From Natronobacterium texcoconense (GTDB lineage: Archaea; Halobacteriota; Halobacteria; Halobacteriales; Natrialbaceae), in NCBI RefSeq assembly GCF_900104065.1, contig NZ_FNLC01000001.1, positions 1,240,001 through 1,304,000 on the forward strand: DNA of 64,000 nucleotides, read 5' to 3'. The notes below the pieces were generated by a model, which was given only the letters and a program-made list of their open reading frames with translations, did not search any database and was not told the origin of the DNA. A program made the translations under genes and the position numbers. Below are positions 34,300-41,565 of this stretch, piece by piece. Position 1 is the stretch's first letter. The number at the start of each line of letters is the position of its first letter.

Positions 34300-36552
<2,253 letters not shown>

Positions 36553-39175: not shown

Positions 39176-40879
39176 CTAGTTATCGACCGTATTGTACAGG
39201 TACTCGTTGTCCCGGAGCCTGCTCGTCAGGTCGTCGTGGATGTGGCCGTTCGACGCGACGAGTTCCTGGCGGTCCTTCTCGCCGTACACTTCGAACGACT
39301 CACCACTCGAGTCGGTCACCGACGCCCCCGCCTCCCGCGCGATGACGATACCCGCCGCGACGTCCCAGGGGTAGGTGTCGTACTCCCAGACGGCGTCGGC
39401 GCTGCCGTTGGCGAGATAACAGAGATGGAGTGCGGCCGACCCCAGCCTGCGGACGCCACGAGTATCGTCGTAGAAGTACGAGAGGAAGATCCCCTCTGGG
39501 TCGTAGCCTGACATCAGCATGCTTTCCTCGAGTGCATCGCGGTCGGTCGTCGTGATCGGCGAGCCGTTCTTGTAGGCTCCCTCGCCAGCGATCGCGCTCC
39601 AGAGTTCGTCGGTTTCGGGCGCGTAGACGACGCCGACGATGGGTTCGTCGTTCTCGAGCAGGGCGAGCGAGACGGCGTAGTTGGGGTTGCCGTTGGCGTA
39701 GTTGCCGGTGCCGTCGAGGGGGTCGACCAGCCAGGTGTACTCGCTGCCGGTCTCGGTGTGGATGCCCTCTTCGGTCAGTATCGTGTGGGCGGGGTACTCG
39801 TTCTCGATGGCGGTCGTGATGATGTTCTCCGAGAGGTAGTCGGCCTCGGTGATGACGTCCGACGTGTCGGTCTTGTACCGCTCCGTCTCGACTTTCCCGT
39901 GGAGGTTCCGGAGCGGATTCCTGACGCTCCGGACGGCTTCCTTCGCGAGTTCACACGCCCGCTCCTCGAAGCAGTCGGGGCCGGCCTCGCTCGAGACGGT
40001 CGGCGGGAGCGACTCACCCTCGGCGTCGCGTGCGCCCCAGCCCAGCAGTTCCGTGATCGCCGTGAAGAAGTCGTCGTCGTGGCTCGTTCGCACGACGTTC
40101 GCCGTACTTGCGGCTCCCGTCACCGTGATCACGTCGTCGGCCTCGAGTTGTTCGTGGAACCGGCCGCCGTCGATCAGCATGTCCGCTCGCTCGGAGCAGA
40201 CGATGCAAATCTCCGTGTCCTCGCTGACGATCAGCGGCCGGACGCCCATCCGGTGGGTGTGCAGCGGGACGATCTGGAGACACGAGTTGTTCGTCGGATT
40301 GTGGACCGGCCCGTTCGCGGACAGCGAGATACCGGTCGACCCCGTCGGCGTCGCAATCGCCAGCCCGGTGCCGTCGTACTCGCCGACGTACTGGCCGTCG
40401 GCGAACACGTCGAGTTTCGTGATCTTTCGATCGACCGGCTCCTCCGGCTGGACGTGCTTGACCATGACGTCGTTGATCCCCGTTGCCTCGAGACCGTTCG
40501 CCTCGACGGTGATCTGTTGGCGCTCGTCGATCGTCGCCCGGCCCTGGACGACCTCCGTCAGCGCGGCCTCGAGGTCGTCGACGTCGACCCGGACGAGAAA
40601 GGCCAGCGTTCCCGTATTGATCCCCAGGATCGGCACGTTTCTGGGTTCGAACTGCTGGATCCCCTCGAGAAAGGTTCCGTCGCCGCCGATCGTCACGCCA
40701 AGCGTCTCGCTGTCGGGATCGTAGACGTCGTCGATGTCGTCGCCGACATCGACCGTCTCGAGTCCCAGACCGTTATCACTCGCCCACGACTCGAGTCGCC
40801 GGACAGCCGCTTCGCTCTCCTCGGCCGGGCTCACGATCGCGACGATCTCTTCCGTCGTAGCTAGCCGCCTCCCTCGCAT
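39176..40879 (-). CDS. NAD kinase fused to an inositol-monophosphatase-like phosphatase
   Basis: A 567-residue two-domain protein. The N-terminal half is an NAD kinase: TIGGDGTFLEGIQQF (the GGDGT motif), GINTGTLAFL, and TPTGSTGISLSANGP. The C-terminal half from about residue 300 is an IMPase/FBPase-like phosphatase: ITEADYLSENII, LTEEGIHTETG, TWLVDPLDGTGNYANGNP (metal site), and YPWDVAAGIVIAREAGA. In Methanocaldococcus the known bifunctional NADP phosphatase/NAD kinase has the phosphatase first; here the order is reversed. The ATG at 40879 is preferred over a GTG at 40891. A TATA box lies 26-35 bases upstream. Confidence 0.88.
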   Translation of the reverse strand: MRGRRLATTEEIVAIVSPAEESEAAVRRLESWASDNGLGLETVDVGDDIDDVYDPDSETLGVTIGGDGTFLEGIQQFEPRNVPILGINTGTLAFLVRVDVDDLEAALTEVVQGRATIDERQQITVEANGLEATGINDVMVKHVQPEEPVDRKITKLDVFADGQYVGEYDGTGLAIATPTGSTGISLSANGPVHNPTNNSCLQIVPLHTHRMGVRPLIVSEDTEICIVCSERADMLIDGGRFHEQLEADDVITVTGAASTANVVRTSHDDDFFTAITELLGWGARDAEGESLPPTVSSEAGPDCFEERACELAKEAVRSVRNPLRNLHGKVETERYKTDTSDVITEADYLSENIITTAIENEYPAHTILTEEGIHTETGSEYTWLVDPLDGTGNYANGNPNYAVSLALLENDEPIVGVVYAPETDELWSAIAGEGAYKNGSPITTTDRDALEESMLMSGYDPEGIFLSYFYDDTRGVRRLGSAALHLCYLANGSADAVWEYDTYPWDVAAGIVIAREAGASVTDSSGESFEVYGEKDRQELVASNGHIHDDLTSRLRDNEYLYNTVDN

Positions 40880-40904
40880 CGTCCCATACACGCGAGCGGA
40901 CCAC

Positions 40905-40969: not shown

Positions 40970-41293
40970 TCAGAACTGATAGCGTCGTTCGTCGTCCATC
41001 GACGGGTACTGGTCCGCTCCCGTCATCTCGTCGAAGGTCATCCCGGAGAGATACTCGTCGTAGGTAACGTCGAACCCCGAGCGCAGGTGGAAGTCGAGTT
41101 TCCCAGTCTCGACGTTGCTCTGGAACAGCATGTGGATCGCCCGCCGGACGAGTTCGTCGGTCTCCTCGGGCTCGAGAGCCGTCTCGAGCAGGGCGAGTTC
41201 GTTCTTCGTCTCCCGGTCCAGCGACACCGCGAGTTCGTCGCCGAACGCGGAGTACGATTCCTGTACGTCCTCGTTGAGATCCTCGAGGCTCAT
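40970..41293 (-). CDS. Conserved haloarchaeal protein of unknown function
   Basis: A 107-residue acidic, helical protein (MSLEDLNEDVQESYSAFGDE, then ETDELVRRAIHMLFQSNVETG and a compact YLSGMTFDEMTG end). There is no signal or membrane segment. No known family was recognised. The ATG at 41293 is preferred; another ATG at 41305 would add four residues. It lies upstream of the NAD kinase gene on the same strand, with 90 bases between them. Confidence 0.65.
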   Translation of the reverse strand: MSLEDLNEDVQESYSAFGDELAVSLDRETKNELALLETALEPEETDELVRRAIHMLFQSNVETGKLDFHLRSGFDVTYDEYLSGMTFDEMTGADQYPSMDDERRYQF

Positions 41294-41565
41294 GCCCGGG
41301 AGCAAGGTAGCGTAGTGGATAGTCCTTTCGTGGTCGACTCGCGGGCACCTATCGTGAGCGCCATGTTACATTAGCAGGTGAGTTCAGTACCTCTCTCGTT
41401 TATTCCGGACGATTACGTCAGATCGACTGGCAAAAAGCCCTGCGTACTGACTGCCGACCGAATCCAGTTGCGATGGATACTCTCTTCGCCTTGCAAGACA
41501 CAACGCGCAAATCCCGAAAAAAGCCGACTCGGACTGGAGCAGTCCAACCGACCAGTAACGTGATA

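Follow-up and report, generated by a model that had tools for sequence, protein, structure and literature searches.

The closest described systems are MJ0917 of Methanocaldococcus jannaschii (574 aa) and MMP1489, which excerpts of a review report as NAD kinase/NADPase enzymes with opposing activities (PMC8553519). In both, a single chain, similar in length to the protein described here, combines an NAD kinase with an IMPase-family phosphatase, and in the MJ0917 type (family model NF010678) the phosphatase is N-terminal and the kinase C-terminal. The same excerpts state that the MJ0917 phosphatase also acts on fructose 1,6-bisphosphate and that promiscuity is a known trait of the IMPase family (PMC8553519). 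For Haloferax volcanii, excerpts of a further source list nadK1 (HVO_2363) and nadK2 (HVO_0837) as probable NAD kinases and as paralogues, with no phosphatase domain mentioned in that text (PMC8305020), and our comparison with these two is by description rather than sequence. Here we describe a gene of Natronobacterium texcoconense, found in a stretch of 64,000 nucleotides that was analysed as a whole and is called the window below, in which the same pair of predicted functions is joined in the reverse order.

A kinase-first fusion in the window

The gene lies at 39176..40879 on the minus strand and encodes 567 aa plus the stop from an ATG at 40879. An in-frame GTG is present 12 bases further upstream at 40891, and the frame 39176-40891 (minus) is open for 571 aa; the ATG is the likely start, because the start of most relatives falls at the same position. 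An NAD kinase domain spans residues 1-285 (40025..40879) and an IMPase-fold phosphatase domain residues 304-567 (39179..39970), with a flexible linker, variable in length among relatives, between them (residues 286-303, 39971..40024), all on the minus strand. In residues numbered from the GTG, Pfam NAD_kinase (PF01513) was found at 66-118 with 45.4 bits against a cut-off of 25.5, NAD_kinase_C (PF20143) at 156-268 with 54.9 bits against 23.7, and Inositol_P (PF00459) at 308-560 with 208.3 bits against 27. The sequence-only reading had proposed an NAD kinase and an IMPase-type phosphatase in a single protein, with the kinase leading and hence opposite to MJ0917; Pfam and Foldseek agree on the first point, and the Pfam layout, together with the same order throughout our alignment of relatives, bears out the second.

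That reading also held that both active sites look intact, and this was confirmed, as the motif sets of both halves are present. The window protein contains GGDGTFL and WLVDPLDGTGNYANG; its kinase side holds GGDGT (residues 65-69, 40673..40687), N136-D137, TPTGST and DGGR, and its phosphatase side holds TEAD (344-347, 39839..39850) and DPLDGTGN (386-393, 39701..39724), as well as EE (370-371, 39767..39772) and WD (505-506, 39362..39367), again on the minus strand. We take these motifs to have their usual catalytic roles, those of the TEAD/EE/DPLDGTGN/WD type being presumably the metal-site motifs of the inositol monophosphatase family. The protein thus shows the features of NAD kinase membership (scores above the Pfam cut-offs, the GGDG motif and the fold) and equally those of the inositol monophosphatase family (score above the Pfam cut-off, the metal-site motifs and the fold).

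An AlphaFold2 model built from a 40-row alignment (mean pLDDT 80.6, pTM 0.59) consists of two mostly confident domains joined via a low-confidence stretch at residues 281-301, where pLDDT falls below 50. Foldseek matched one half of the model to solved NAD kinases (7mh7; 7qvs with NADP) and the other to IMPases (5zhh), while VIA-align gave matches for the phosphatase half; the kinase fold was taken from Foldseek, because the phosphatase half filled the VIA-align matches. The NADK of Pseudomonas aeruginosa (7mh7, 7qvs) resembles the N-terminal half in fold and motifs, with 110 bits and, as aligned by Foldseek, 25-27% identity, and the inositol monophosphatases 5zhh (Anabaena), 2p3n (Thermotoga) and SuhB share fold and motifs with the C-terminal half, 5zhh_A reaching a Z of 35.1 at 38% identity. 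Unlike the fusion, however, all of these are stand-alone proteins, the phosphatases having no kinase domain. Elsewhere the same genome has two more NAD kinase matches, along with three more from the IMPase family, of which one is marginal. Because of those two NAD kinase matches, the fusion is predicted to be an addition and not the sole source of NADP.

Distribution and origin of the fusion

Domain searches across archaea, which had been suggested as a check, placed the kinase-first fusion in 68 of 391 Halobacteria genomes evenly drawn from the class, and a full-length kinase-first match in none of 241 genomes sampled from the rest of the phylum, where the best match was a lone phosphatase frame. 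The 68 genomes hold 76 loci in total; eight genomes carry two copies, and one such copy has an internal stop codon. The fusion is frequent in the window's family (51 of 101 genomes) and genus (5 of 5) and less so in the rest of the class (17 of 290). Scoring in these searches was limited to a few top candidates in each genome, and the counts of 68, 76 and 51 were made by hand and checked for duplicates. A scan of named genomes yielded 41 loci: 39 are intact kinase-first fusions, L042 is a copy whose frames are broken, and L047 is an IMPase standing alone. Ten of 72,556 plasmid records cover at least 80% of the fusion and all ten are haloarchaeal, so at that coverage these records hold no kinase-first fusion in bacteria. 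The fusion has a patchy distribution within the haloarchaea, and some copies sit on secondary replicons. In five loci (L012, L016, L017, L030 and L034; three plasmid-titled records, one chromosome 2 and one contig) it sits among similar genes, with CofH-like radical SAM, luciferase-like and amidohydrolase genes as neighbours in L012.

For comparison of residues, 78 distinct fusions were aligned, with the window's included and L042 excluded. Sequences with a single residue difference or more were counted as distinct, and close relatives are among them, so the motif counts, and the counts of CBS-domain neighbours given below, are not independent. Within this set GGDGT is kept in 75 of 78, N136, always with D or E adjoining, in 78 of 78, and TPTGST in 75 of 78; on the phosphatase side, D347 and EE are kept together in 72, EE is found in 72, and WD in 77. 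That the fusion is an artefact of chance, assembly or annotation has a negligible probability: it is already refuted by 78 distinct full fusions that come from a wide range of genera, several of them in records whose titles read complete genome, and we found nothing in its support. A standard kinase-first order in well-studied relatives, which had been set against the novelty of the arrangement, turned out to be half true, since the order is standard within a haloarchaeal family but no studied member was found in the literature. Titles and abstract beginnings of open-licence papers yielded no haloarchaeal or kinase-first fusion, and the family is apparently uncharacterised.

The relation to MJ0917 was approached through family model NF010678 and the review, not through MJ0917's own sequence. 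Against this model the whole window protein scored 200.1 bits in two stretches, below the cut-off of 493; none of 294 phylum genomes lies above that cut-off, and one of 14 control genomes does. The best phylum matches to the model are adjacent gene pairs. In 20 of 20 inspected loci outside Halobacteria, which were the best scorers against the MJ0917-type model and not a random draw, the two genes share a strand, the phosphatase precedes the kinase and a stop separates them, and one Halobacteria genome (G021), chosen for its side-by-side matches, also has such a pair. These adjacent IMPase and NAD kinase genes link the same two predicted functions in the genome, and as in the Methanocaldococcus fusion the phosphatase leads; they are, however, two genes, whereas the fusion is one kinase-first chain.

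In our trees the kinase rows of the fusion form one clade (support 100 in two earlier trees, 100/100 in the later one), as do its phosphatase rows (96 in the quick tree, 100/99 in the later one). Since each domain's fusion rows fall in a single clade, the kinase-first fusion most likely arose once. The broken copy L042 falls inside the fusion clade in both quick domain trees, and a lone Haloprofundus IMPase (L047:4776-5591) sits on a long branch inside the fusion phosphatase clade and is perhaps a fission product of the fusion.

The later trees and the AU tests used fusion rows thinned to 19 and a kinase set from which the long bacterial row L204 was dropped, and MJ0917 itself is absent from all trees. 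The best kinase trees separate the archaeal kinases from a group of fusion and bacterial kinases (95/83, and 90 in an earlier tree), as a bacterial origin of the kinase would have it, but in the AU tests both alternatives to this tree survived, one grouping the fusion with haloarchaeal kinases (p 0.158), the other keeping the bacteria in a single clade (p 0.512). The best phosphatase tree groups the fusion half with haloarchaeal lone IMPases (81/80). Another account is that an ancestral phosphatase-first arrangement, as a gene pair or a fusion, was rearranged into the present order, rather than the protein being newly put together from unrelated genes. AU tests allow either half to be sister to the phosphatase-first pairs (kinase p 0.174, phosphatase p 0.362), and such a pair still exists in G021; yet the best trees point the other way for both halves, in a data set from which MJ0917 is missing, and we regard rearrangement as unlikely. 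Assembly separate from the Methanocaldococcus phosphatase-kinase fusion is the simplest reading, and not proof, because the AU tests leave sisterhood to the phosphatase-first pairs unsettled. The earlier claim of an independently evolved domain order therefore stands in part: a single origin of the reverse-order family is backed by the trees, while separateness from the phosphatase-first pairs is not secured by the AU tests.

Predicted substrates of the two halves

Every NCBIfam model matched by the kinase half is an NAD kinase. The phosphatase half alone scored 164.5 bits with the FBPase/IMPase model, 148.0 with HisN, 125.1 with CysQ, 122.4 with IMPase and 84.4 with the MJ0917-type model, all five below their cut-offs. 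Aligned by VIA-align to 5eyg, which is titled as an IMPase/NADP phosphatase with NADP, this half gave a Z of 28.6 over 260 aligned residues at an rmsd of 2.8, but many plain IMPases lie above 5eyg (best Z 35.2), so the match does not identify the substrate. NADP is, by analogy with MJ0917 and not through family membership, the likeliest substrate, and only the likeliest because the phosphatase half scores higher with the FBPase/IMPase model than with the MJ0917-type model.

The same ranking of scores is what one would expect if the protein were a true NAD kinase whose phosphatase acted mainly on inositol phosphate, fructose 1,6-bisphosphate, PAP or histidinol phosphate, and the grouping of the phosphatase half with haloarchaeal lone IMPases, not with phosphatase-first pairs, would fit this too. 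The fusion would then couple two functions under common control and not two opposing activities. A family score, though, leaves room for NADP, because the IMPase family is promiscuous and the phosphatase of MJ0917 itself takes fructose 1,6-bisphosphate (PMC8553519), and under this reading the joining to an NAD kinase is left to be explained on other grounds. We judge a different main substrate to be a minority prospect, to be taken seriously but improbable, and hold the same view of a fusion for common control.

Less probable again, and rather remote, is that both halves act on one metabolite other than NAD, the kinase having changed its acceptor and the phosphatase reversing the reaction. Two other NAD kinase genes are already present in the genome, and the fusion kinases form a separate, long-branched clade, which would suit such a change. 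Against it, the kinase half scores above the Pfam cut-offs, its NAD kinase motifs are kept in nearly all members, its NCBIfam matches are as given above, and the closest structures to it found by Foldseek are solved NAD kinases, one of them NADP-bound. NAD for the kinase half and NADP for the phosphatase half remain our preferred assignment.

Degenerate copies, neighbouring genes and proposed function

Both halves are under purifying selection. Among 18 pairs, where computable, pairwise dN/dS was 0.034 to 0.337 for the kinase half and 0.039 to 0.261 for the phosphatase half, and the two halves of the window gene gave 0.225 and 0.259 against Natribaculum breve; these are simple pairwise estimates, with synonymous sites saturated in several pairs and four half-gene values lacking. 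Loss of an essential residue, which the sequence-only reading had counted as evidence against two working sites, is absent from the window protein and occurs in a few relatives. Six of the 78 distinct fusions have a degenerate phosphatase site, in which D347 and EE are not kept: the Halovenus copies in L038, L039, L040 and L044 have lost TEAD and read EG in place of EE, and the second copy in L019, as well as L168, show more phosphatase-site loss than these. On the kinase side L041 is without GGDG, and L035 and L175 read GGDGA. Because six fusions have a degenerate phosphatase site and one lacks GGDG, the two predicted activities appear not always to be kept together in the family. In the three Halovenus pairs computable in both halves, dN/dS of the phosphatase (0.058 to 0.095) was below that of the kinase (0.144 to 0.196), while a fourth pair gave a kinase value of 0.080 only, and Halovenus synonymous sites are partly saturated. 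As the phosphatase half is more constrained than the kinase half in these pairs, the comparison points to its retention in a putative non-catalytic role.

A pyridine nucleotide-disulphide oxidoreductase gene, thioredoxin-reductase-like, follows the degenerate fusion in L038 (6793-7839), L039 (6765-7814), L040 (6846-7853) and L044 (6763-7800), and likewise the broken second copy in L042, whereas in L019 the second copy is followed by a DUF5783 gene. The product in L038, L039, L040 and L042 carries an HRR stretch, which we take to be an NADPH-binding motif. On the upstream side, a relative of a CBS-domain protein lies 51 to 325 bases away in 17 of 61 distinct fusions, 12 divergent and 5 on the same strand (in L013, L019, L038-L040, L044, L056, L063-L065, L068, L070, L072, L074, L075 and L077). 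The 61 are those for which 700 bases or more of upstream sequence were available, and the query was a 149-aa CBS protein, Pfam-tested in L039 only. The other 44, which include the window's copy, have no such gene upstream; in the window's genome the strongest CBS match (35% identity) is located away from the fusion. CBS domains are adenine-nucleotide sensors, and from gene position we infer that a neighbouring CBS-domain protein may set the direction of the fusion in some lineages. In L019 (2445-6701) two divergent fusion copies have a CBS gene between them. A CBS-domain gene also stands 15 bases before an NAD kinase gene in Parabacteroides distasonis (L216:1134-2684); none was found at that place in Bacteroides finegoldii.

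An operon with the window's own neighbours was considered and rejected: among loci L008-L098 only L046 showed a relative of ORF111 and only L035 one of the oxidoreductase, and the malic enzyme, DHH, OGT and ORF166 proteins had no match near the fusions in these loci, with histidine kinase matches considered only at 300 residues or more. Just upstream of the fusion the window has a 111-aa frame without Pfam match (40970-41305, minus), to which a stretch about 1.7 kb upstream of the L046 fusion, on the opposite strand, is 56% identical. The window also holds a phosphate acetyl/butyryl transferase domain fused to malic enzyme (34300-36552, plus).

By its sequence, the fusion is a real and conserved reverse-order counterpart of the known bifunctional enzyme, and by analogy a function in opposing activities is plausible. 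What follows on the two activities, on their opposing one another and on an origin separate from MJ0917 is inferred. The N-terminal half would convert NAD(H) into NADP(H) by phosphorylation, the C-terminal half, of the IMPase type, would most likely strip the 2'-phosphate off again, and the NADP(H) pool would be set by whichever activity dominates, in a protein derived from a single kinase-then-phosphatase fusion that stands, most simply, apart from the Methanocaldococcus one. An accessory haloarchaeal enzyme making and removing NADP in one polypeptide, by way of that one separate fusion, is the account we favour by a modest degree. We are doubtful of, but would put forward, a wider scheme of a haloarchaeal NADP-setting module, in which an adjoining CBS-domain protein would set the direction of a kinase-first dual enzyme, and in a derived form the phosphatase would have turned into a conserved regulatory domain, no longer catalytic, of an NAD kinase dedicated to supplying the neighbouring thioredoxin reductase.

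Annotation has tended to obscure this family, as in the ten haloarchaeal plasmid records the fusion is named 'inositol monophosphatase family protein' in seven and left unannotated in three, a product name that misses the kinase half. Halovenus genomes in which intact and phosphatase-degenerate copies occur together offer a natural experiment on the effect of the phosphatase half on the kinase. The arrangement described here suggests that the same two opposing predicted activities have been joined twice, in opposite order, which if true would support the usefulness of physically coupling the making and breaking of NADP.
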